From NCBI RefSeq assembly GCF_030731595.1, contig NZ_JANQTS010000088.1, positions 36,280 through 87,843 of the forward strand: a DNA stretch of 51,564 nt, in the 5' to 3' direction. A program made the translations under genes and the position numbers. This document shows, piece by piece, positions 1 through 18,373 of this stretch (position 1 is the stretch's first letter; the number at the start of each line of letters is the position of its first letter). The stretch comes from Yoonia sp. (GTDB taxonomy: Bacteria > Pseudomonadota > Alphaproteobacteria > Rhodobacterales > Rhodobacteraceae). The notes under the pieces were generated by a model. It saw only the letters and a program-made list of their open reading frames with translations. It was not told the origin of the DNA and searched no databases.

Positions 1-1311
1 TTACTCTGCCGCCGTACCATAGGCCACGTTCTTGCCGCCATACCGGCGCACGCGGATATTGCATTGCTCTGCGTGGCCCACGAACCCTTCGAGCATACAC
101 AACCGCGAGCCATATTCACCGACAAGGGCCGCCGCTTCATCGGTCAGGATTTTCTGATAGCTGTGCGTCTTGAGGAACTTTCCGACCCAAAGACCGCCAG
201 TATAGCGCCCGGCCTTCTTGGTTGGGAGCGTATGGTTTGTCCCGATCACCTTGTCGCCATTCGCCACATTGGTCCGCGCCCCGAGGAACAGCGCGCCATA
301 GCAGGTCATATGCTCCAAGAACCAATCGTCGCGGTCGGTCATGACCTGCACATGCTCAGAGGCGATATCATCGGCAACGGCCAGCATTTCGTCATAGGTA
401 TCGCAAAGGATGACCTCACCGTAATCAGCCCAAGAGGTTCGCGCGGTTTCGGCGGTCGGCAGAATAGCAAGGATCCGGTCGATCTCGGCCAATGTTGCCT
501 TGGCCAGCTTTTCGGAATTTGTGACCAGAACAGCGGGCGAATTGTACCCGTGTTCGGCCTGCCCCAGCAGGTCGGTTGCGCAAAGTTCGGCATCCACAGT
601 GTCGTCAGCGATCACCATGGTTTCGGTCGGGCCAGCAAACAGGTCGATCCCGACGCGGCCAAACAACTGGCGCTTGGCTTCCGCGACAAAGGCATTGCCT
701 GGACCCACGATCATATGCACCGGTTCGATCGTTTCGGTGCCCAGCGCCATCGCTCCCACCGCCTGCATGCCGCCCATCACGTAAATCTCGTGCGCACCGC
801 CCAACTGCATGGCCGCGACAATCGCGGGATGCGGCGCACCGTTCTGTGGCGGGGCCGCTGCGATGATGCGCGGCACGCCCGCGACCGAGGCTGTCAGGAC
901 AGACATATGGGCCGAGGCGACCATAGGGAATTTGCCACCGGGCACATAGCAGCCGACCGATTGCACAGGGATATTCTTGTGACCAAGGATCACACCGGGC
1001 AGGGTTTCCACTTCGATATCCGTCATCGAGGCGCGCTGCGCCTGCGCAAAGCCCCTGATCTGGTTCTGCGCAAAGCGGATATCATCCATATCACGGGCCG
1101 ATACTTTTGACATAGCAGCTTCGATCTCGGAGGGGCTGAGCCGGAAGCTGGGCGGATCGTATTTGTCAAACTTGACGGAAAGTTCGCGGACAGCGGCATC
1201 GCCGCGCGCACCGATATCGGCCAGCGTTGTTTCCACGACTGCGCGGACTTTCGCATCGTCTTCGTCCCGCTCGGCCTGCGCCTTGCCGGTTTTCAAGTAA
1301 GTGACCGTCAT
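1..1311 (-). CDS. HisD-family NAD-dependent dehydrogenase (not biosynthetic HisD by context)
   Basis: Predicted 436-aa cytoplasmic zinc- and NAD-dependent alcohol/aldehyde dehydrogenase of the histidinol dehydrogenase superfamily. The family's zinc and catalytic residues are recognisable: Gln251 and His254 (QAEH), Glu319-His320 (SEHVQ), Asp353, His360 (GTNH) and His413 (EGFVGH). The start has a good ribosome site (GGAGG, 7 nt upstream). It is the last visible gene of a minus-strand operon with an ABC ATPase and a SnoaL-like protein, and no his genes are nearby, so a catabolic role on the imported compound is inferred. The best-known catabolic relative is sulfopropanediol dehydrogenase HpsN, but the HpsK/L/M transporter and HpsO/P partners are not seen, so I do not assign that substrate. 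The operon may continue past the left edge. Confidence 0.85.
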
Positions 1312-1374
1312 TTCGTTTCCTCCGCGTCCCGGATATCTTGCGGGACTTGTTCCTTTCGTGGCGTCACTCTGGCA

Positions 1375-1869
1375 TTAATCCGGATGCGCTGGTGTGGCAG
1401 TTCCGTTGTCGTAACTTTCCCACCCTTGTCCGCCAAAAACATCGACCCCCAGTTGCATCATGACCGATGCAAAGTCGACCGATACAGGATTGTCGGCAAT
1501 CCGCCCATCCTCGATCCGCCAGAAATCCATATACGGGATCCTGACCCGCTTGCCCGTGGCAGGAATGCCCATGAAGGTGCCAGAATGCGTCGCTTCGATA
1601 TGTCCGAAACAAGAGGCCCAGGCACCATCAGCCATGAAATGTTCAGTGATATAGTCCCTGTCAGTGAAAGCGGCACGCAAGGGAAACTGCCAGTTGCGCT
1701 GAAACTCCGCGATGCCTTTCTTGGTGCCGCAGCCCTGATTGCCGCGCCACAGGAAATCGGGCGTGAAATAGGGTGTCATATCCATTTCACCCGCAGCAAG
1801 TCCGGCTTCCATGCGTTTGACCGCAGCAAGCGAGGCCGCAGTTTGGCTGGCGTGGTCTGGAGTGTTCAT
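1375..1869 (-). CDS. SnoaL-like / NTF2-fold protein, single domain
   Basis: 164-aa protein with the look of the SnoaL-like polyketide cyclase (NTF2-fold) family: an N-terminal helix, then a DFLWRG segment near residue 37, and a closing strand pattern (YMDFWRIEDGRIADN) typical of these alpha+beta barrels. The ATG at 1869 overlaps the TGA of the upstream ABC ATPase as ATGA, which decides the start and suggests translational coupling. It resembles the second half of the 329-aa protein at 6347-7336, so the cluster holds three related domains. SnoaL-fold proteins act as cyclases, isomerases, hydrolases or binding proteins; the reaction here cannot be told from sequence. It lies 63 nt upstream of the HisD-like gene. 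Confidence 0.8.
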   Translation of the reverse strand: MNTPDHASQTAASLAAVKRMEAGLAAGEMDMTPYFTPDFLWRGNQGCGTKKGIAEFQRNWQFPLRAAFTDRDYITEHFMADGAWASCFGHIEATHSGTFMGIPATGKRVRIPYMDFWRIEDGRIADNPVSVDFASVMMQLGVDVFGGQGWESYDNGTATPAHPD

Positions 1870-2918
1870 TTGCTCAGCCTTTGCCCTGTGTCCTTGTCGA
1901 AGAGATGGCAAATCGCGGCAGGGATATGCGCATGGACGGGATCGTCAATTTCGACACGGTAGTCCTTGCCCGATTTCACCGACACGATTGTGCCGCCGAT
2001 CCGCATCGTGACCATTGTGGCCTCGCCCAGCAGTTCCAGTGAATAGACTTTGGAATTCGCCTCGGCAGGACCAGTAGCAACACTGGCATCCTCTGCGCGA
2101 AAACCGAGTGTGACAGGACCGTTATGCTGTGACGGCAGGCCGGACACGGTGATCTTGTCTGCGGTGAAGGTGCCACCCGAAATCTGCCCATCGACCAGAT
2201 TCATCGCTGGCGAGCCGATAAATCCCGCCACAAAAGTGTTGGCGGGATTGTCATAAATGTCGGTAGGGGTGCCGACCTGTTGCACCACGCCTTTGCTCAT
2301 CACCACGACACGATCAGCAAGGGTCATGGCCTCGATCTGATCGTGCGTGACATAGATTGTCGTGACCTTGAGTTCGTGGCTCAGATTCTTGATCTGCGCG
2401 CGGGTGGAAACCCGCAGCTTTGCGTCAAGGTTCGACAGGGGTTCGTCCATCAAGAACACATTGGGTTCGCGCACGATCGCGCGGGCCAAGGCCACACGTT
2501 GTCGCTGCCCGCCCGACAATTCCGCAGGCTTGCGGTGCAGAAACTCGTCCAGTTCGACCATCGCTGACGCGCGCATGACCCGCTCTTTGTGTTCGGACTG
2601 CGGAACGCCGCGCACTTTGAGCGGAAAGCGGATATTGTCGTAGACGTTCAGGTTGGGATAAAGCGCGTAGCTTTGAAACACCATCGCCACATCGCGATCT
2701 TTTGGATCAAGATCGTTAACACGCTTGCCATCAATCAGAATATCACCGCCCGATGCATCCTCGAGCCCCGCGATCATCCGCATCGTTGTGGTCTTGCCGC
2801 AACCCGAGGGCCCCAGCAGCACCAGAAATTCCTGATCGGCAATGGTCAGATCGAACCCTTCAACCCCGACAAAGGAGCCCCAGCGTTTGGATACATTGCG
2901 CAGCTGAATTTCGGCCAT
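1866..2918 (-). CDS. ABC transporter ATP-binding protein, MalK/UgpC type
   Basis: 350-aa ATPase of a CUT1-type carbohydrate ABC importer. Motifs in order are Walker A GPSGCGKT (36-43), Q-loop Gln82, signature LSGGQ (134-138), Walker B VFLMDEP (154-160) and a C-terminal regulatory (TOBE-like) domain from about residue 240. The ATG at 2918 has an AAGGGG ribosome site; an in-frame extension to 2975 would run through the operator and is unlikely. It is transcribed divergently from the binding protein and permeases it must serve (3147-6342), so the transporter is split over two operons sharing one control region. Its stop overlaps the next start (ATGA). Confidence 0.93.
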   Translation of the reverse strand: MAEIQLRNVSKRWGSFVGVEGFDLTIADQEFLVLLGPSGCGKTTTMRMIAGLEDASGGDILIDGKRVNDLDPKDRDVAMVFQSYALYPNLNVYDNIRFPLKVRGVPQSEHKERVMRASAMVELDEFLHRKPAELSGGQRQRVALARAIVREPNVFLMDEPLSNLDAKLRVSTRAQIKNLSHELKVTTIYVTHDQIEAMTLADRVVVMSKGVVQQVGTPTDIYDNPANTFVAGFIGSPAMNLVDGQISGGTFTADKITVSGLPSQHNGPVTLGFRAEDASVATGPAEANSKVYSLELLGEATMVTMRIGGTIVSVKSGKDYRVEIDDPVHAHIPAAICHLFDKDTGQRLSK

Positions 2919-2928
2919 CGGACGCCCC

Positions 2929-2944
2929 TTGCATACGTTTGCAA
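2929..2944. promoter_or_regulatory. Candidate LacI-family operator, site 1
   Basis: The 16-base near-palindrome TTGCATACGTTTGCAA, centred on a CG step as in many LacI-family operators, lies 11-26 nt upstream of the ABC ATPase start. A regulator bound here would cover the ribosome-site side of the minus-strand transcript or its promoter. The same sequence in opposite orientation occurs at 3054-3069. No regulator gene is in the window. Confidence 0.7.
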
Positions 2945-3053
2945 AAACTTTCGCCTGATTCCTAATCTCTCGCAAGGGCTAAAGCGGCGAATGCATAAAT
3001 CTTTGGCATTTCACGGCAAAATGCTTGCGTCATGATAGACCTTCGCGGTTAAA

Positions 3054-3069
3054 TTGCAAACGTATGCAA
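3054..3069. promoter_or_regulatory. Candidate LacI-family operator, site 2
   Basis: TTGCAAACGTATGCAA, the exact reverse complement of site 1 and 125 bp from it, lies 78 nt upstream of the binding-protein start. The pair brackets the divergent promoter region, so one regulator could control both operons, possibly with a DNA loop. This is inferred from symmetry and position only. Confidence 0.7.
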
Positions 3070-3146
3070 AACCGTCGCGATTCGCAGATGGTAGAAAATC
3101 AGACCGGTCAAAACCGGACCATGAGAACAACTGGGAGGTTCTTGAA

Positions 3147-4376
3147 ATGAATATCTTGAAATCGGCTTTGCTGGGAACTGCGGTTGCAGCCTTGACGGCC
3201 ACCGGTGCTTTGGCTTGCGAGGCCACAGGCCGCGTCAGCATCATTGGCAATGAATTCCCCGCGATCCAGACGGTCGCCGCAAATGCCGGTGCCTGCACAG
3301 GGATCGACTTTTCCTCGAACCTGACGGCTGACCACCAGACGCTGAACGTTGCCGGCATGTCGGGCAACCCCGCCGAATATACAACGGCCATTGTTGCGAA
3401 CTCGTCCATCGTGGCGCTGATCAACGAAGACGTCATTCGCCCGCTGGACGATCTGGTTGCAACCTATGGCGCCGACATTCCCGCCCGCCAGTTGATCACC
3501 GTCGATGGTCAGATCATGGCCGTAGCGTTCATGGCCAACGCGCAGCACCTGGTCTATCGCGGTGACGTGCTTGAACAGGTCGGCCTCGATGTGCCGACCT
3601 CCTATGAAGAAGTCCTTGCCGCTGCCGAGGCGATCCGCGCTGCTGGCATTATGGAGTATCCGGTCGGTGGGGCCTATGCGGCCGGTTGGAACCTCGCGCA
3701 GGAATTCATCAATATGTATATCGGCACCGGTGGTGAATTCTTTGTGCCAGGGACTGCACAGGTCAGCATTAACAACGCACAAGGCGTTGAAGCGCTGGAG
3801 ATGATGAAAGCGCTGACAGAATACATGAACCCCGATTTCCTCACCCACGACAGCAACGCAACATCCGCTGAATGGGAGGCAGGAAACGTTGCCCTCATGA
3901 ATATGTGGGGCAGCCGGACAGGCGTGCTGATGGACGCAGAGGGCTCCGAGCCCGTCGTCTATGAGAACACAATGGTTTCTGGCCCACTCACCGTTGGTGA
4001 TAGCGGCACGCCTGCAACGACTCTTTGGTGGGACGGCTGGACCGTCGCCAAGAATATCAGCGATGAAGACGCCGCTGCGACTTTCATTGCGATGGCCAAT
4101 GGCGTATCGCCCGCAATCCTGGATGATGCGACAATGGGACAGGCTGTCTGGCTGATGGAAGGCTATACGCCGGCCCCCGTGAACGAAGGCGTCTTGGCCT
4201 CTGTTGCTGCAGGCTCCACCCCTTACCCGATGCGGCCGTATCAGGGTTTGTTGCACACAGCGCTGGGTGACAATATCGCCGACTTCCTGCAAGGCAACGA
4301 AAGCGCAGAGCAGGCGCTGGCCGACATCGAAGCAGCCTATACTGCTGCCGCGATTGAAAAAGGGTTCCTGCAGTAA
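3147..4376 (+). CDS. ABC transporter substrate-binding protein (CUT1, family 1)
   Basis: 409-aa periplasmic binding protein with a clear Sec signal peptide (MNILKSALLG, hydrophobic core, cleavage near ALA-CEA at about residue 24). Length and fold signs match the extracellular solute-binding family 1 that binds sugars, polyols and related compounds. The ATG at 3147 follows GGGAGG; a TTG-started extension upstream would begin inside operator site 2 and lose the signal peptide from the N-terminus. The ligand is not evident. Two permease genes follow after a stable hairpin (4386-4408). Confidence 0.9.
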   Translation: MNILKSALLGTAVAALTATGALACEATGRVSIIGNEFPAIQTVAANAGACTGIDFSSNLTADHQTLNVAGMSGNPAEYTTAIVANSSIVALINEDVIRPLDDLVATYGADIPARQLITVDGQIMAVAFMANAQHLVYRGDVLEQVGLDVPTSYEEVLAAAEAIRAAGIMEYPVGGAYAAGWNLAQEFINMYIGTGGEFFVPGTAQVSINNAQGVEALEMMKALTEYMNPDFLTHDSNATSAEWEAGNVALMNMWGSRTGVLMDAEGSEPVVYENTMVSGPLTVGDSGTPATTLWWDGWTVAKNISDEDAAATFIAMANGVSPAILDDATMGQAVWLMEGYTPAPVNEGVLASVAAGSTPYPMRPYQGLLHTALGDNIADFLQGNESAEQALADIEAAYTAAAIEKGFLQ

Positions 4377-4385
4377 GGACCTTCG

Positions 4386-4408
4386 GGGAAGGCGCATGCC
4401 GCCTTCCC
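4386..4408 (+). terminator. Intercistronic hairpin between binding protein and permease
   Basis: A perfect 9-bp stem (GGGAAGGCG / CGCCTTCCC) with loop CATGC lies between the binding-protein stop and the first permease. It lacks a T run, so it is more likely an mRNA-stabilising or partial-termination element that leaves binding protein in excess over permease, as known for maltose-type operons. Confidence 0.6.
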
Positions 4409-4433
4409 GCTCCGCCAGTTCGGGACAAGACAT

Positions 4434-5459
4434 ATGAAACATGCTTCATTCTTTTGGTTTGTCCTGCCCTCGTCCCTGATGATGCTTTTGTTCATTGCTT
4501 TCCCGATCGTTTCGGTCGTGACGCAATCGCTGTACCAAGCCCACGAACAGGTCATCATCGAGGTCGAGAACTGCGGCCCCTTTGGCTGCACCACCGAAAC
4601 CGCCGTTGATACGCAAGCAACCGCCGCCCTGCGCGAAGCAGAGCCTTTGGGCCAATGGGCCGGTCTGAACATCTACAAAGACCGCAACCATCTTGCCGTG
4701 GACGAGGTGACTGCGGCCTGGGTCAATGCCGACGGGTTACCCGACTTTGGCCGCGCCTTGATGAACCTGCCCTTTTACAAGGCGATGGCCTTTACGCTGA
4801 CCTATACGGCCGTGGTCACCCCGCTCACGATCATTCTGGGCTTTATCATCGCGATTGCTGTCAATGCCGTCGCCCGCAGTCTGCGCGGGCCGACGATCTT
4901 TTTCTCGCTTTTGCCGATGATCGTCACGCCGCTTGTCGGTGCGCTCATCCTGTTCTGGATGGTTGATGCGCGCGGCATTCTGGGCACCGCGCTGCAATGG
5001 CTGGCCGATGATCCCAGCCTTTCGGTCAAGGCCTCGACCCCGCTGATGTGGATCATGCTGATGGTCTACGGAGTATGGAGTTCGGCCCCTTTCGCTTTCA
5101 TCGTCTATTATGCAGGGTTGCAGACGGTGAATACCGACACACTCGAAGCCGCGATGATCGACGGGGCAAGCCGCTGGCAGCGGATCCGCTATGTGGTCAT
5201 TCCGCATCTGGTTCCGTTGACGACCTTTATCGCGCTGATCCAGCTGATGGATAACTTCCGCGTCTTTGAACCCATCGTCAGTTTCAGCGCACAGGCCCAT
5301 GCGACCTCGTTGTCTTATGCGATCTTTAACGATCTGGGCGGCGAAACACGGCTGCTGTCCTCTGCCGCTGCAACATCGGTGCTGACAATCATCGGCGTTG
5401 CGATCCTTTTGTCCCCCGTTCTTGTGCGCACATGGCGCGAATTCGGCAGCCCGAGGTAA
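4434..5459 (+). CDS. ABC transporter permease 1 (MalF/UgpA type)
   Basis: 341-aa inner-membrane permease. One transmembrane helix (residues about 6-32) is followed by a long periplasmic segment (about 33-115) with a CGPFGC cysteine pair, then five more hydrophobic segments. The ATPase-contact EAA loop is visible as EAAMIDGASRWQRIRYVVIP. It pairs with permease 2 and the ATPase at 1866-2918. The long loop after TM1 is larger than in most short CUT1 permeases and may contact the binding protein. Confidence 0.92.
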   Translation: MKHASFFWFVLPSSLMMLLFIAFPIVSVVTQSLYQAHEQVIIEVENCGPFGCTTETAVDTQATAALREAEPLGQWAGLNIYKDRNHLAVDEVTAAWVNADGLPDFGRALMNLPFYKAMAFTLTYTAVVTPLTIILGFIIAIAVNAVARSLRGPTIFFSLLPMIVTPLVGALILFWMVDARGILGTALQWLADDPSLSVKASTPLMWIMLMVYGVWSSAPFAFIVYYAGLQTVNTDTLEAAMIDGASRWQRIRYVVIPHLVPLTTFIALIQLMDNFRVFEPIVSFSAQAHATSLSYAIFNDLGGETRLLSSAAATSVLTIIGVAILLSPVLVRTWREFGSPR

Positions 5460-5463
5460 GCCC

Positions 5464-6342
5464 ATGTCAGTTGCCACCCGTCGCTCTCCTGCCGCCAACA
5501 CACTCGCCTACGGGTTCATCATCATCTGGCTGATCATGGCCGCCTTTCCGTTCCTGTGGACCCTTTGGGGGTCCTTCAAGGTGGAAGGCGATTTCTTTTC
5601 CAAGGCCGACTGGGCCAATTCGATCTTTGGCACGCTGACCGTTGTGGAAACAGGGAGCAGCTTTACCGGCGACGGCTATTACGGCGCATGGGTGCAAGAA
5701 GAATTCTGGCGCGCGGCGCTGAACACCACAATTGTCTGCGTCTGTGTGGTGACGATCTCGCTGACCTGCGGGACGCTGGGAGGCTATGCCTTGTCACGCT
5801 CGACCTACCGTTATGCCTTCTGGTTTCTGATCTGCGCGCTCATGTTTCGGGCGATGCCGCCGATCACCTTGGTGTCCGGCTACCTTTTGCCCTTCTTTGA
5901 ATGGAACCTCTGGGGGCATCTGAGCACCACGATCATCGTGCTGGTGGCGATCAACCAGCCTTTTACACTGTGGATGCTGCACGCTTTCTTCAAGAACATC
6001 CCCAAAGACCTTGACGAAAGCGCCATGGTCGATGGCTGCACCCGTTTCCAGGCTTTCCGCCATGTGATTATTCCGGTGATGTGGCCGGGCGTGATCACGA
6101 CCGGTTTGTTCAGCTTCCTTTTGGCCTATAATGATTTTGCGGTCACCTCGATGCTGCTGAGCAAGGACAACCAGACGATGGTGCCGAAACTCGCCAGCTT
6201 CCTTGGGACGACCCAAACAAAGGGCAACGTGATGTTTGCGGTTTCGGCTGTGGTTTCGGTGACGGCACCGCTTTTCGTGATGATCATTTTCTTCCAGCGC
6301 CAGATCGTCTCTGGCCTGACCGCAGGGGCAGTGAAGGGCTAA
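5464..6342 (+). CDS. ABC transporter permease 2 (MalG/UgpE type)
   Basis: 292-aa inner-membrane permease with six hydrophobic segments and the EAA-type loop ESAMVDGCTRFQAFRHVIIP. The start at 5464 is 4 nt after the stop of permease 1. A longer reading from 5398 would overlap permease 1 and is rejected. A roughly 60-residue segment between TM1 and TM2 is probably periplasmic. It forms the pore with permease 1. Confidence 0.92.
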   Translation: MSVATRRSPAANTLAYGFIIIWLIMAAFPFLWTLWGSFKVEGDFFSKADWANSIFGTLTVVETGSSFTGDGYYGAWVQEEFWRAALNTTIVCVCVVTISLTCGTLGGYALSRSTYRYAFWFLICALMFRAMPPITLVSGYLLPFFEWNLWGHLSTTIIVLVAINQPFTLWMLHAFFKNIPKDLDESAMVDGCTRFQAFRHVIIPVMWPGVITTGLFSFLLAYNDFAVTSMLLSKDNQTMVPKLASFLGTTQTKGNVMFAVSAVVSVTAPLFVMIIFFQRQIVSGLTAGAVKG

Positions 6343-6346
6343 TCAA

Positions 6347-7336
6347 ATGCGCTATCAATCCGAGAAAGCGCTGGTGCGCGCCCATTATGATGCGTTGGCG
6401 AAAGCCACGCCAGAGACAGTCGCGCACGCCTTGGGTGAACACACGAGCGCCGATTGGCATTGGCGCGGGATGCATCCCTTTTATGAACAACACGGCGCAA
6501 AGGCTGTCGCTGACAGCTTCTGGGCGCCATTCCTGCGTGCGATGACCAATGTCCAGCGGCGGCAGGATATGTTCTTTGCAGGCCACAACGAGATTGATGG
6601 CTTCGCGTCCGTCTGGGTCGTGTCGATGGGTCATCTGATGGGGCTCTTCGATGCGCCCTTCATCGGGATCAAACCCAACCGCCGGATCGCGATGCTGCGA
6701 TATGCGGAGTTCCACAAGGTGGTGGACGGCAAGATCGTCGAGACTGCGCTCTTCTGCGATCTGCTCCATCTGATGCGCCAAGCGGGGCAATACCCGCTGC
6801 CGCCGCAGACAGGCATGCATCTGGTCCAGCCCGGACCTGCGACCCATGACGGCCTGCTGTTTCAGGATGCGCCCCAAGACGAGGGCATCACGACTTTGGC
6901 GCTGATCAACAGCATGATCGGCGATATCAACGCGCATCAGAAATACGCCACACCACAAGAGGAACTGGCACGCTGCTGGCACGACGATATGCTGTGGTGG
7001 GGGCCAGAGGGGATCGGGGCCACCTATACCATCGACCGCTATGTCGAACAGCACCAACGCCCGTTCCGGACCCAGATCAAGGACCGCGTCTTTAACGGCC
7101 ATATCTGCAGGCTTGCCGAAGGCAATTTTGGCGGGTTCTTCGGTTGGGCCAATCTGACAGTCACGAACGCGGGCGGCTATATGGGCCTGCCAGCGGGCAC
7201 CCCCGCCGAGATGCGGGTGGTCGATCTTTACCGGCGGGACGGCGACAAGCTGGCGGAAAACTGGATATTTATCGACATGCTGCATTTTCTGTCGATGCAG
7301 GGACTGGATGTGCTGGGACGCATGCGGTCCAAGTAA
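6347..7336 (+). CDS. Tandem-domain SnoaL-like protein
   Basis: 329-aa cytoplasmic protein made of two SnoaL/NTF2-like halves, about residues 1-165 and 180-329. Each half has an aromatic W-x-W/G motif (DWHWRG near residue 38, DMLWWG near 215) and a closing strand pattern. The second half resembles the 164-aa protein at 1375-1869. The ATG lies 4 nt after the permease stop, so it is co-transcribed with the transporter. A role as cyclase, isomerase or lactone-processing enzyme on the imported compound is inference. I know of no described pathway that pairs this double-domain protein with a HisD-like dehydrogenase and a CUT1 importer. Confidence 0.8.
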   Translation: MRYQSEKALVRAHYDALAKATPETVAHALGEHTSADWHWRGMHPFYEQHGAKAVADSFWAPFLRAMTNVQRRQDMFFAGHNEIDGFASVWVVSMGHLMGLFDAPFIGIKPNRRIAMLRYAEFHKVVDGKIVETALFCDLLHLMRQAGQYPLPPQTGMHLVQPGPATHDGLLFQDAPQDEGITTLALINSMIGDINAHQKYATPQEELARCWHDDMLWWGPEGIGATYTIDRYVEQHQRPFRTQIKDRVFNGHICRLAEGNFGGFFGWANLTVTNAGGYMGLPAGTPAEMRVVDLYRRDGDKLAENWIFIDMLHFLSMQGLDVLGRMRSK

Positions 7337-11386: not shown

Positions 11387-11402
11387 TTACGGATGATGCC
11401 GC

Positions 11403-12212
11403 TTAGATGCCCCAGATATAGACAGCGAAGAACAGGAACAGCCAGACCACGTCAACAAAGTGCCAGTACCATGCTGCGGCTTCGAAACCGACGTGACGCT
11501 CTGGTGTAAAGTGCCCTGCCCGCGCCCGCAAGTAGCAGACAAAAAGGAAGATCGTTCCGATGATCACGTGGAAACCGTGAAAGCCTGTGGCCATGAAGAA
11601 GTTCGAGAAGAACTTGTCACCACCGAATGTCCAGTCCTGCGCGACCAGCAAGTACCAGTATTCATAGGCCTGCAGCCCTGTAAACGCGATCCCCAGAACC
11701 ACAGCCAAAAGCAAACCGTGCTCAAGGTCTTTGCGATTGTTTTCGTGTACCAGTGCGTGGTGCGCCCAAGTGACGGCCATGCCGGAACACAAAAGGATCA
11801 GAGTATTCATCAGCGGCAGGTGGAAGGCGTCAACCTGATAGAACTCTGGCGGCACATAGGAGGTGCCGACATATTCGTTCATCGGATAGATCGTGTGCTT
11901 GAAGAATGACCAGAACCATGCAGCAAAGAACATGACCTCGGACATGATGAACATGATGAAGCCATAGCGCAGACCGATCCGCACGACAGGCGTGTGGTCG
12001 CCGGCATTGCTTTCGGCAACGACCTCGGACCACCACGCGAACATGACGTAAAGCACCATCGCAAGGCCGATCAGGAACATGTACGGGCCGCCGCCATGAT
12101 TTGGCATCCACAAGACGGCCCCGAAAAGCATGATAAACGCGCCCAGACCGCCCATGAATGGCCAAATTGACGGTGGCAGAATGTGAAAATCGTGGTTTTT
12201 TGCGTGCGCCAT
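11403..12212 (-). CDS. ctaE: Cytochrome c oxidase subunit III
   Basis: 269-aa integral membrane subunit of the aa3 oxidase. It has about seven hydrophobic helices and the conserved [26 protein letters not shown] and [11 protein letters not shown] segments. The N-terminus [18 protein letters not shown] is typical for Rhodobacteraceae. It stabilises the subunit I/II core. It is encoded after ctaG, with a 26-nt gap. Confidence 0.97.
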
Positions 12213-12238
12213 GTGGTGCGTTCCCTATCGGCTTGTCG

Positions 12239-12853
12239 TTAGTTCGTTTCTATGCCGCCTTGCGGCGCGGTTGTCAAAGTCTCGGGGGCCAGTGCGGCCT
12301 GGATTTCTTCCTCGGGGAGGTCGATCTGGTAGAAGGTGTAGCTTAGCGTAATCGTATGCACGAACTTGCCTTCGCGATCATCAACGATAGCAGGATCAAC
12401 AAAGAAGCTGACTGGCATCATCACTGTCTCGCCGGGCATCAGAACTTGCTCTGTAAAGCAGAAGCACTCGATTTTATCAAAGAAGACGCCTGCTTCGTAG
12501 GGTGTGACGTTATAAGCGGCTTGACCCGCAACAGGCACATCCAGCGGATTATGTGCCTCGTAGAAGGCCAGTCCGGTTTCCCCGATCCTGATTTCCATCT
12601 CGCGCACTTCAGGTTTGAAAGTCCACGGCATGTCCCTTTCGAGCGAGGCATCAAAGCGGACCTTGATCGTCTGGTCGAGAATCACATCGCTGCCGGTTTC
12701 GGCGACATTCGTGGCGCCGCCAAAGCCTGTGACCCGGCAAAACCAGTCATAGAAAGGGACCGAGGCCCATGCGAGCCCACCCATGAAAACAACGACTGAA
12801 ACCGTTTGCGCGACGGTTCTTTGAGGTCCTTGGAGCTTGGGAAAAAGTGTCAT
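12239..12853 (-). CDS. ctaG: Cytochrome c oxidase copper chaperone CtaG (Cox11)
   Basis: 204-aa protein anchored by one N-terminal helix (about 15-37), with a periplasmic copper-binding domain. The copper-site motif is seen as ECFCF, followed by MPVSFFVDP, the family signature. It inserts copper into the CuB centre of subunit I. Its ATG overlaps the stop of the small upstream gene as ATGA. Confidence 0.96.
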   Translation of the reverse strand: MTLFPKLQGPQRTVAQTVSVVVFMGGLAWASVPFYDWFCRVTGFGGATNVAETGSDVILDQTIKVRFDASLERDMPWTFKPEVREMEIRIGETGLAFYEAHNPLDVPVAGQAAYNVTPYEAGVFFDKIECFCFTEQVLMPGETVMMPVSFFVDPAIVDDREGKFVHTITLSYTFYQIDLPEEEIQAALAPETLTTAPQGGIETN

Positions 12854-13053
12854 TCGCTTGCACTTTCCTGCGGGATCAACTGGGGCCGAACCACGTGATC
12901 GAACTTTTCAAACTGGGCCGCGTCTCCCAGTTGCAAGACCTTCACCACGGTCAGCCCGAAGATAATCGCGATAAAAGACAGCAAGATCAGCCCAAGGCCA
13001 TAGTTGCGGCCTTTGCGGCGCTCGTGCAGTTCATGCTCGACTTGCAAAGTCAT
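12850..13053 (-). CDS. CoxF-like small membrane protein
   Basis: 67-aa protein with a charged N-terminus (HELHERRKGRNYG), one transmembrane helix (about 17-37) and a polar tail. It sits exactly where small CoxF-type proteins occur between ctaB and ctaG in alphaproteobacterial cta operons. Two in-frame ATGs exist; the one at 13053 is preferred because it is 6 nt from GGAGG and makes an ATGA overlap with the ctaB stop, whereas the ATG at 13059 touches the ribosome site. Its function in oxidase assembly is unproven. Confidence 0.8.
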   Translation of the reverse strand: MTLQVEHELHERRKGRNYGLGLILLSFIAIIFGLTVVKVLQLGDAAQFEKFDHVVRPQLIPQESASE

Positions 13054-13985
13054 GACCATCCTCCGATGCCATAAAGACGCAGCACCGCTTCGACCAAGAG
13101 TGCGCCGAAGTGTGCAAACAGATAATAAAGCGAGACCTTGAAGACCTTGATCTCGACCTTGTGCCTGTCAGCCTCACAGGCCGCATCGTCGCGCCGCCAG
13201 ATGTCATAGGCCCCTTTGAGGAACCATGCGTTCATGATCACAGCGACAGCCATATAGAATGGACCGCCAATTGACGTGAACCCCAACCAGATCGCGACCG
13301 GCACCAAGAAAAGCGTGTAGACCAGCACATGCTTGCGGGTGGCATCCCGACCATGTGTTTCGGTCAGCATCGGCACGCCTGCGTTGCCGTAGTCAGATTT
13401 GACAAACAGGGCCAGCGCCCAGAAATGCGGCGGCGTCCACATGAAGATCAGCGCAAACATCAGGACGGATTCGATGCTCACCCCGCCCGTTGCCACCGCC
13501 CAGCCGATCATCGGAGGGAAAGCCCCCGCAGCGCCACCAATGACGATGTTCTGCGGTGTGGCCCGCTTGAGCCACATTGAATAGATCACCGCATAAAAGA
13601 AAATTGTGAAAGCGAGCAGGAAAGCCGCCAGAAAGTTGGTGGCAAGGGCCAGCAGGACTGTCGCAAAACCAGAAAGCGCCAAGCCGATGCCCAAGGCTTC
13701 GCCCGGCTCTACCCGGCCAGAGGGGATCGGGCGGCCTGCTGTGCGCTTCATCCGCGCATCAATATCGGCATCCCACCACATGTTCAGCGCGCCAGACGCC
13801 CCTGCGCCCACGGCGATGCAAAGGATCGCCACGAAGCCGATGAAAGGATGGACCGGAACAGGTGCCGCAAGCAGCCCGACAAGTGCGGTGAACACGACAA
13901 GCGACATCACACGCGGTTTGAGCAGGGCAAAGTAATCGCCCATACCTGCCTCGTAGGTTCTGTCGCTTGCGCTGATATCGCTCAT
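13050..13985 (-). CDS. ctaB: Protohaem IX farnesyltransferase (haem O synthase)
   Basis: 311-aa integral membrane prenyltransferase of the UbiA superfamily that converts haem b to haem O, the precursor of haem a. The magnesium-diphosphate motif is visible as NMWWDADIDARMKRTAGRPIPSG (around 88-110), with multiple hydrophobic helices. It is the second gene of the cta operon after ctaC, separated by 87 nt containing a palindromic repeat. Confidence 0.97.
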   Translation of the reverse strand: MSDISASDRTYEAGMGDYFALLKPRVMSLVVFTALVGLLAAPVPVHPFIGFVAILCIAVGAGASGALNMWWDADIDARMKRTAGRPIPSGRVEPGEALGIGLALSGFATVLLALATNFLAAFLLAFTIFFYAVIYSMWLKRATPQNIVIGGAAGAFPPMIGWAVATGGVSIESVLMFALIFMWTPPHFWALALFVKSDYGNAGVPMLTETHGRDATRKHVLVYTLFLVPVAIWLGFTSIGGPFYMAVAVIMNAWFLKGAYDIWRRDDAACEADRHKVEIKVFKVSLYYLFAHFGALLVEAVLRLYGIGGWS

Positions 13986-17245: not shown

Positions 17246-18373
17246 ATGACCGGAAACAACACATCTTCCACTCACCCCCAACTCCCCCCCACCACGGAAG
17301 AGGATACGGTCAACCGGCTCCGCCTATTGCGATCACGTCGGGTTGGCGTGGCGACCTATCATCGGCTGATCGCAGAACATGGCACTGCGGCGGACGCGCT
17401 GCGCGCCCTGCCGCTGATCGCGCAGGCGGCAGGCGTTTCTGACTATACGGTCTGCCCCGAAGGCGTAGCACTTGCAGAGCTGAAGGCGGGCAAATCCGCA
17501 GGTGCCCGTCTGCTGATCGCGGGCACTCCGGACTATCCTGCGTCGCTGGCGCAGATCGATGACGCGCCGCCCATGTTGTGGGTAATGGGCAAGGTCAGCC
17601 TCCTGCAGCGCCCTATCATCGCGCTTGTGGGCGCGCGTAATGCCTCATCTCTTGGAACGCGCATGGCCAAACGTCTGGCCGAGGATTTGTCTTTGGCGGG
17701 CTATGCCGTTGTATCCGGCCTCGCGCGCGGCATTGATGCGGCAGCGCATCTTGGTGCACTGACGCATGGCACCATTGCGGTGCAGGCGGGCGGTGTCGAT
17801 GTCATCTATCCGTCGGAGAATGCGCAACTGGCGCATGATATCGCAAAATCCGGCTTGCGCTTGTCGGAAATGCCGATGGGCCTGCAGCCGCAAGCGCGCC
17901 ATTTTCCGGCACGGAACAGGATCATCTCGGGTCTGGCGCAAGCTGTTGTCGTGGTCGAGGCTGCGGCCAAGTCAGGTAGCCTGATCACCGCGCGCAATGC
18001 CCTTGATCAGGCGCGCGATGTTCTGGCAGTCCCCGGACATCCTTTTGATGCGCGCGCGTCGGGCTGCAACATGCTGATCCGCGACGGTGCGACATTGGTG
18101 CGCAATGCCGCCGATATTATTGAAACCCTGCAACCTGTCGCTGAACAAGAACCGACGCTTGACGTTGTCGTGCCGCAAACCCGCGGTTTGCGGGACACAG
18201 CAGCACTCCATTCCGAGATTCTGGCGCGGCTTGGGCCTGCGCCCATCGCCGAAGACCAGCTTTTGCGCGACATCAAGGCCAGCGCGATGGACGTGGGTCC
18301 GGTGCTCGTTGACCTTGAACTGGATGGTAAAATCATACGGCAGGCCGGTGGTTTGCTGGCCCGCGCGATCTGA
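17246..18373 (+). CDS. dprA: DNA processing protein DprA (Smf)
   Basis: 375-aa protein that loads RecA on incoming single-stranded DNA in natural transformation. The Rossmann-like core is clear: VGARNASSLGTRMAKRLAEDL, VVSGLARGIDAAAH, PRHFPARNRIISGL-type segment and GSLITARNALDQARDV. The N-terminal part (about 20-90) resembles the SAM-like domain, and residues about 305-375 fit the C-terminal winged-helix domain. It precedes topA by 105 nt, a common pairing in alphaproteobacteria. Confidence 0.96.
   Translation: MTGNNTSSTHPQLPPTTEEDTVNRLRLLRSRRVGVATYHRLIAEHGTAADALRALPLIAQAAGVSDYTVCPEGVALAELKAGKSAGARLLIAGTPDYPASLAQIDDAPPMLWVMGKVSLLQRPIIALVGARNASSLGTRMAKRLAEDLSLAGYAVVSGLARGIDAAAHLGALTHGTIAVQAGGVDVIYPSENAQLAHDIAKSGLRLSEMPMGLQPQARHFPARNRIISGLAQAVVVVEAAAKSGSLITARNALDQARDVLAVPGHPFDARASGCNMLIRDGATLVRNAADIIETLQPVAEQEPTLDVVVPQTRGLRDTAALHSEILARLGPAPIAEDQLLRDIKASAMDVGPVLVDLELDGKIIRQAGGLLARAI

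Follow-up and report, generated by a model that had tools for sequence, protein, structure and literature searches.

Which compound is served by a bacterial gene cluster that joins a complete sugar-type importer to SnoaL-like proteins and a dehydrogenase of the HisD family? The question is raised by the first 7336 bases of a 51,564-nucleotide stretch of Yoonia sp. DNA (the window), that is, positions 36280-87843 of contig C88 in a 3.27 Mb genome of 151 contigs. A sequence-only reading had described here a CUT1-type ATP-binding cassette (ABC) importer divided over two divergent operons, with a SnoaL-like gene on each and three SnoaL-like domains in all. Searches with Pfam and NCBIfam recovered all seven genes, each with an intact open reading frame at the position assigned to it before. 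The minus strand carries the importer ATPase, SnoaL1 and the HisD-like dehydrogenase (HisDl), and the plus strand the binding protein, the permeases and SnoaLx2. The importer is complete, with an SBP_bac_1 protein, two permeases and an ATPase of the MalK/UgpC type, and the three SnoaL domains are spread over two genes, one in SnoaL1 and two in SnoaLx2.

The same reading had placed the HisD-like gene at the end of the cluster. Its assignment to the HisD family stands, but it comes last only because a gap cuts the cluster: a run of exactly 100 N (18181-18280 of locus L004 in our numbering), which looks like a scaffolding gap, abuts base 1 of the window. On the other side follow genes for a short-chain dehydrogenase/reductase (SDR), a LacI-type regulator, a second double-SnoaL protein (SnoaLx2b), a bicupin and a MetE-like protein. 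The spacer between HisDl and SDR measures 78-187 or 733-805 bases in 11 close relatives. The window holds only half of the cluster, and the set of seven genes, sound as a group of conserved co-occurrence, has to be extended to about twice that size (approximately 12 genes), and now includes a regulator of the LacI family and an operator that is conserved.

We propose a LacI-controlled catabolic island dedicated to one sugar-like, polyhydroxylated compound, a reading that we consider somewhat probable. It builds on features seen in the sequence, namely the importer, the LacI protein, a conserved pair of palindromes, the conserved gene set, the zinc and catalytic residues of HisDl and the SnoaL folds. 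At this level the cluster is solid as a unit.

Conservation of the cluster and of its operator

HisDl, counted at an identity of at least 75% (the match in G001 being partial), was present in 33 of 56 genomes of the genus, and the binding protein in exactly the same 33. These 33 genomes also contained SnoaLx2 (32), SnoaLx2b (31) and the MetE-like protein (26), while at the E-value limits applied none of the five proteins was detected in the remaining 23. Without correction for relatedness, the co-occurrence gives Fisher p values between 3e-16 and 8e-10. Most matches were located within 12 kb of a HisDl gene (binding protein, 32/36; SnoaLx2, 29/34; SnoaLx2b, 31/36; MetE-like protein, 26/27). 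The neighbourhood comparison that the sequence-only reading had suggested thus gave conserved co-occurrence, and the association is not random. That reading would have been abandoned if the genes were randomly associated in relatives or if the cluster matched sulfopropanediol use; as far as sequence allows, neither is the case.

Beyond the genus, we compared 80 loci whose HisDl is 82-91% identical to that of the window. They are the best 80 of at least 578 relatives and therefore the closest ones; named relatives near the top include Roseobacter sp. CCS2 (L007), at 91% identity, and a Yoonia bin, at 90%. Neighbours were counted by tblastn in the 51 loci with long flanks (at least 8.5 kb to the left and 5.5 kb to the right), and a CUT1 importer lay beside HisDl in 41 of them. 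These 41 loci also held the bicupin (41), LacI (38), SDR (37), SnoaLx2b (35) and MetE-like (33) genes and, less often, SnoaL1 (25), SnoaLx2 (24), an alpha/beta hydrolase (23), RraA (15) and an HpaI-type protein (6). Seven genes that flank the cluster here (GNAT, M16, ThrC, FADox, VOC, Apt and MtaP) served as a control and were found in only 0-2 of the 41. With the importer beside HisDl in 41/51 loci versus 0-2/41 for the flanking genes, the gene order is far above chance. Besides, 34 of the 42 loci of at least 15 kb with at least three importer subunits contained three to four SnoaL genes, and all 42 contained at least one in a looser search. The SnoaL set accompanies HisDl in loci of the CUT1 version.

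The divergent promoter contains the palindrome TTGCAWACGTWTGCAA twice. Both copies are exact, with 0.05 matches expected in the window at up to two mismatches. They are the only sites in this genome at up to one mismatch, with two more places at two mismatches; the same pattern read backwards gave one place. Among the 56 genomes of the genus, 23 contained exact sites, 39 in total and all beside the cluster promoter (positions compared by eye); there were none in the 23 genomes that lack the cluster, and the backwards control gave none in the 56. As an independent test, the strict palindrome was searched in 244 genomes of the order, irrespective of whether they carry the cluster. It was found in eight of them, with one site each and none for the backwards control. 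All eight sites were located between the SnoaLx2 and ATPase genes, and HisDl was present in all six of the eight regions that were fetched. In the 80 loci, 117 sites at up to two mismatches were counted in 58 loci, versus 0-2 for eight shuffled palindromes, a count that is partly circular since the operator had been found on these same loci, and in which not every site lies at the promoter. Four Hyphomicrobiales loci (L030, L031, L036 and L059) have a second site just upstream of HisDl, tying HisDl itself to the operator.

Since LacI and the sites are co-conserved, we infer that the cluster's LacI protein would bind the TTGCAWACGTWTGCAA sites. The part of a LacI regulon survey that was available (PMC4052901) gave no match to the cluster terms. 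A different palindrome, TTGGAAACGTTTCCAA, is present in L014 and L024.

SnoaL-like, bicupin and MetE-like proteins and the type of substrate

The window proteins and SnoaLx2b pass the Pfam cut-offs for the SnoaL-like family, and the PDB chain closest to SnoaL1 is SnoaL itself (1sjw, E 6e-8). The predicted model of SnoaLx2b has a predicted local distance difference test (pLDDT) score of 89.4, and both halves align with structures of the SnoaL/ketosteroid isomerase/epoxide hydrolase fold in a VIA-align comparison with known structures. Such a fold suits isomerisation, dehydration or ring opening, and the SnoaL proteins may act on rings or lactones. The two window proteins do not reach the NCBIfam cut-offs for cyclases and ketosteroid isomerase. 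Unlike SnoaL, ketosteroid isomerase and limonene epoxide hydrolase proteins, those of the cluster include chains with two domains and stand in a catabolic operon. The rhizobial SnoaL genes in the accessible part of PMC12337268 were not matched to the cluster.

PDB searches with the bicupin and the MetE-like protein returned weak and unspecific matches only. The N-terminal HxH and Glu of the bicupin (H76, H78 and E82) are invariant in 12 sequences, Arg120 stands at what we take to be the position of the last His of the usual cupin motif, and the C-terminal HxH is not conserved. The MetE-like protein shares the catalytic domain PF01717 with the MetE family, and H243, C245, E277 and C343, invariant in 13 sequences, presumably correspond to the MetE zinc ligands H, C, E and C. 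Unlike MetE, it consists of the catalytic domain only, and it meets no NCBIfam methionine synthase cut-off.

These proteins bear on the possibility that the substrate is an aromatic, cyclic or polyketide-like compound, with the SnoaL proteins and the bicupin as ring enzymes and HisDl oxidising a hydroxymethyl side chain. The SnoaL fold would agree with this. On the other hand, CUT1 importers and LacI regulators usually serve sugars, and the bicupin model is middling (mean pLDDT 72.5), with dioxygenases, oxalate decarboxylases and seed storage proteins scoring alike and its C-terminal HxH variable. We regard this explanation as possible and rather doubtful.

It is also conceivable that the SnoaL proteins are ligand-binding or regulatory helpers and that the remaining genes form an ordinary sugar-acid oxidation pathway. 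HisDl and SDR do occur without SnoaL proteins, and an alignment of SnoaLx2-like proteins, which mixes subfamilies and includes one SnoaLx2b row, has only 21 invariant columns. However, polar residues are invariant at many positions of SnoaLx2b, in the first domain as well as in the second, and three to four SnoaL genes in 34/42 long CUT1 loci are many for accessory roles, which makes helper functions unlikely.

Our preferred substrate, a sugar-like compound, is in line with the binding protein, whose profile matches are sugar-binding proteins, SmoF and MalE3 included. Judged by the habits of their families only, the regulator and the type of transporter favour a sugar or sugar acid over an amino alcohol. 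Such a compound fits the binding protein, whose closest matches are sugar-binding proteins, taken together with a regulator of the LacI type. The earlier proposal of uptake and oxidation of a polyol, amino alcohol or cyclic compound is therefore retained as to one unit of uptake and oxidation, and shifted away from amino alcohols. The cluster resembles CUT1/LacI sugar systems of the MalFGK/UgpC and SmoF types in its four importer parts, its LacI regulator and the palindromes in the divergent promoter, but differs in having SnoaL, HisDl, bicupin and MetE-like genes in place of glycosidases and kinases. The available part of a transporter screen in Ruegeria pomeroyi (PMC10130141) gave no match to the cluster.

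The HisD-like dehydrogenase and the proposed pathway

The PDB chains closest to HisDl are two dihydroxypropanesulfonate (DHPS) dehydrogenases of the HpsN type, 8wwe ((R)-DHPS dehydrogenase) and 8v35 (sulfopropanediol 3-dehydrogenase of Cupriavidus pinatubonensis). In the accessible part of PMC11382572, the zinc ligands of HpsN are given as Gln248, His251, Asp352 and His411 and the catalytic residues as Glu318 and His319, with the sulfonate bound by His126 within a G-R-Y-A/S-H motif. We aligned 106 HisDl rows (the 80 loci, 19 genus loci, six plasmid loci and the window, some of which share genomes), leaving out alignments shorter than 380 residues and L001, L002 and L004. The zinc and catalytic residues (Q251, H254, D353, H413, E319 and H320) and the equivalent of HpsN Lys353 were kept in 106/106. 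The sulfonate-binding His126, by contrast, is replaced by Met130, within GKFPM, in all 106, versus GRY[SA]H in 16/16 HpsN rows. In a tree of 31 HisDl rows (30 random ones and the window), 17 HpsN and one HisD on a very long branch, in which the bootstrap had not fully settled, HisDl, HpsN and a third HisD-like type each lay on one side of a branch (support for HisDl versus HpsN, 100/99). By its sequence, HisDl is a subfamily of its own, to be filed neither as HpsN nor as HisD. It probably carries out a four-electron NAD-dependent oxidation at zinc, like HpsN and HisD, on a substrate free of sulfonate.

The third type, with GR[FY]PL in 11/11 rows, is encoded near the cluster in L023, L027, L029, L046, L050, L051, L057, L060, L063, L068 and L076 (GR[FY]PLL); an amidase gene is present in nine of these 11 loci, and operator-like sites lie between the GR[FY]PLL gene and HisDl in several of them.

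The kinship with HpsN raises the question whether the cluster is a pathway for DHPS or another C3-sulfonate, with HisDl acting as HpsN and the adjoining SDR as HpsO. HisDl shares with HpsN its family, metal and catalytic residues and Lys353, it has 45% identity with the HpsN encoded in this genome, and an HpsO-like protein was matched in 65/80 HisDl loci (best 54%). Nevertheless, the sulfonate His is a Met, the clades are separate, HisDl is mostly accompanied by an ABC importer, and a real hps cluster is located elsewhere, on contig C65 (L005 6262-10421). Besides HpsN, it encodes an SDR, an MDR and a LacI-like regulator, together with two subunits of sulfopyruvate decarboxylase, both of which clear their cut-offs; the names HpsO and HpsP are given by analogy with the available part of PMC11131964. 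The sulfopyruvate decarboxylase genes ComD and ComE were found in 0/80 HisDl loci (no search was aimed at other sulfonate lyases), and an HpsP-like match in 2/80, at 51% identity or less. In a control of 15 HpsN loci, with shorter flanks than the HisDl loci, matches at 55% identity or more were found for HpsP in 11, HpsO in nine, ComD in seven and ComE in two. Sulfopropanediol use is thus very unlikely.

That HisDl is an ordinary histidinol dehydrogenase, present in the cluster by chance, can be set aside as most improbable: it does clear the TIGR00069 hisD cut-off (428 versus 244 bits) and is called histidinol dehydrogenase in public plasmid records, which include isolates from seawater, soil and legume hosts, but the score does not discriminate because HpsN passes too (436 bits), contig C110 carries another HisD-family gene (motif GLASYP) to which HisDl is 40% identical, versus 45% to HpsN, HisDl differs from HisD in branch (one HisD row), motif and context, and its synteny and operator are conserved.

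HisDl and SDR also occur together in other surroundings. In L107, L134 and L136 the pair adjoins a LacI gene, a TAXI-TRAP transporter and a gene annotated as aldolase/citrate lyase (that of L107, the only one scanned, is HpaI/GarL-like and below cut-off), with RraA in L134 as well. In L014, L024 and L108 it stands with lactonase-like and 3-hydroxyacyl-CoA-dehydrogenase-like genes, accompanied by a CUT2-like sugar importer in L024 and L108. Vitamin B6 degradation was rejected for this CUT2-like variant, as two of its genes match 4-pyridoxolactonase at 42 bits (cut-off 325) and FHMPC dehydrogenase at 159 bits (cut-off 500), far too low for either name. HisDl lies beside NAD(P) transhydrogenase genes on the rhizobial plasmids pRL8 of R. 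johnstonii 3841 (L106) and p4 of Pararhizobium qamdonense (L133), with the SDR in between in L133 and without SDR in L106. By gene order, the 'hisD' pRL80041 of R. johnstonii, listed in a proteome table in the available part of PMC7105596, is probably the HisDl of L106. Two further rhizobial plasmid regions carried no annotation. In L110, HisDl and SDR stand nearly alone. Since TRAP and CUT2-like transporters are thus found beside the pair as well, it may act late, on an intermediate common to other pathways, perhaps a sugar or sugar acid where several pathways meet.

Two further sets of loci were noted. Genes for nadA, aspartate oxidase and nadC adjoin HisDl and SDR in L134 and L136. HisDl at approximately 85% identity occurs with other neighbours in bins labelled Akkermansia, Verrucomicrobiaceae, Rubripirellula and Pirellula (L012, L016, L022 and L040), by recent transfer or mis-binning, with an alpha/beta-hydrolase-like gene, named by eye, next to it in L012, L016 and L040.

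Taking the cluster as a catabolic island for a sugar-like compound, we suggest the following scheme. The compound would enter by the CUT1 importer and release the LacI repressor from the two operators. The SnoaL-like proteins, encoded by three to four genes in most long loci, might catalyse acid-base steps such as isomerisation, dehydration or the opening of a ring or lactone, with further steps by the bicupin and the MetE-like zinc protein. The SDR would oxidise a secondary alcohol, and HisDl, using NAD twice, would convert a -CH(OH)-CH2OH end into a hydroxy acid, a reaction like that of HpsN on DHPS but with a sulfonate-free substrate. Proteins resembling lactone hydrolases and pyruvate aldolases (alpha/beta hydrolase, fuconolactonase-like protein, RraA and HpaI), which only some loci encode, could complete the route into central metabolism.

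Several observations weigh against this scheme. Four of the 36 binding-protein matches in the genus lie away from HisDl, some of which look like split contigs and one, at 51% identity, like a second copy; the MetE-like protein is missing from 7/33 HisDl-bearing genus genomes, and beyond the genus no gene for it is annotated in the cluster of Paracoccus alcaliphilus DSM 8512 (L111). SnoaL1 reached the threshold in only 25/41 CUT1 loci, and six of the 41 lack all three SnoaL families at threshold. The link between HisDl and the importer is borne out by 41/51 long-flank loci and limited by the other ten, where HisDl, often with the SDR, travels without it; at the thresholds used, seven of these ten have the SDR, one (L039) has SnoaL genes and nine lack all three families. 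The exact operator is absent from 10/33 cluster-bearing genus genomes, and 22/80 loci have no site at up to two mismatches. In PDB the SDR is closest to 2-deoxy-D-gluconate 3-dehydrogenases and L-xylulose reductase. This would be a sign of a sugar-type substrate, but it says little, and makes the scheme slightly less probable than it first looked, because the best-matching families of the HpsO-like SDR in this genome are of a similar sort (KduD and gluconate 5-dehydrogenase, none at cut-off). Neighbours resembling HpaI/GarL aldolases and fuconolactonase, likewise signs of a sugar, are found in some loci only, such aldolase and lactonase genes being a minority (RraA, 15/41; HpaI-type, 6/41) and below the NCBIfam cut-offs for these names.

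A more specific idea, a long shot that joins gene content to known chemistry, is that the cluster degrades a methoxylated cyclic polyol of algae or cyanobacteria, for example a sunscreen of the mycosporine or gadusol type, and would be the first such pathway. The MetE-like protein would then remove the enol-ether methyl, the bicupin would open the resulting enediol ring with oxygen and the SnoaL proteins would rearrange the products; HisDl would oxidise the CH2OH on a tertiary carbinol, and an RraA-type aldolase could cleave the tertiary hydroxy acid to yield pyruvate. No mycosporine breakdown pathway of this kind was found in a search of the open-access literature.

Layout of the locus and meaning of the finding

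The coordinates of the genes and putative operators are collected in Table 1.

Table 1. Genes and putative operator sites of the cluster. Positions refer to the window unless preceded by L004.
Feature	Position	Strand	Remarks
HisDl, HisD-family NAD/Zn dehydrogenase, separate subfamily by sequence	1..1311	-	PF00815, 446 bits; GKFPM at residues 126-130
SnoaL1, one SnoaL-like domain	1375..1869	-	Frame open from 1911, start 1869 inferred from sequence; PF07366, 65 bits
ABC importer ATPase, UgpC/MalK type	1866..2918	-	Frame open from 2975, start 2918 inferred; NCBIfam UgpC subfamily cut-off cleared (NF008653, 452 versus 432 bits)
Putative LacI-type operator TTGCATACGTTTGCAA	2929..2944	.	Upstream of ATPase operon, function inferred
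Putative LacI-type operator TTGCAAACGTATGCAA	3054..3069	.	Upstream of binding-protein operon, function inferred
Solute-binding protein of CUT1 importer	3147..4376	+	Frame open from 3054, start 3147 inferred; PF01547, 69 bits
ABC permease A	4434..5459	+	PF00528 (BPD_transp_1)
ABC permease B	5464..6342	+	Frame open from 5398, start 5464 inferred; PF00528 (BPD_transp_1)
SnoaLx2, double SnoaL-like protein	6347..7336	+	PF07366, plus PF12680 in two stretches
SDR	L004 17417-18130	Same as HisDl	Start cut by gap
LacI regulator	L004 16413-17420	Same as HisDl	PF00356 helix-turn-helix and PF13377 effector domain
SnoaLx2b, second double-SnoaL protein	L004 15430-16416	Same as HisDl	
Bicupin	L004 14432-15397	Same as HisDl	
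MetE-like protein	L004 13286-14410	Same as HisDl	PF01717 catalytic domain

The region between HisDl and SDR is occupied by a further SnoaL gene in 39/80 loci. A protein of approximately 225 residues is encoded between or near the two genes in L007, L008, L009 and L045 (about 11387-13095), and the single copy scanned (L045) had no Pfam match. Upstream of the cluster, L150 (752-6952) contains genes that by eye, with no search, resemble those for an aminomethyltransferase, a Rieske oxygenase and PanB and that possibly serve demethylation. The rest of the window (7392-51564) resembles ordinary chromosome, with genes, likewise named by eye, for a GNAT protein, an M16 protease, threonine synthase, topA, pilus-type proteins, ftsH, formate-tetrahydrofolate ligase and tolB.

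The sequence-only reading knew of no described pathway with this gene set, and we found no description of it in the open-access literature searched, subscription papers and preprints being outside that scope. The parts are of known kinds; for their combination, as for the operator and the HisDl subfamily, that literature appears to hold no description.

A conserved island with its own operator and its own HisDl subfamily points to a common environmental compound, on which there are three direct handles: binding protein, operator and HisDl itself. Besides, the GKFPM motif gives a simple rule against counting HisDl as HisD or HpsN when histidine synthesis or sulfonate cycling is surveyed.

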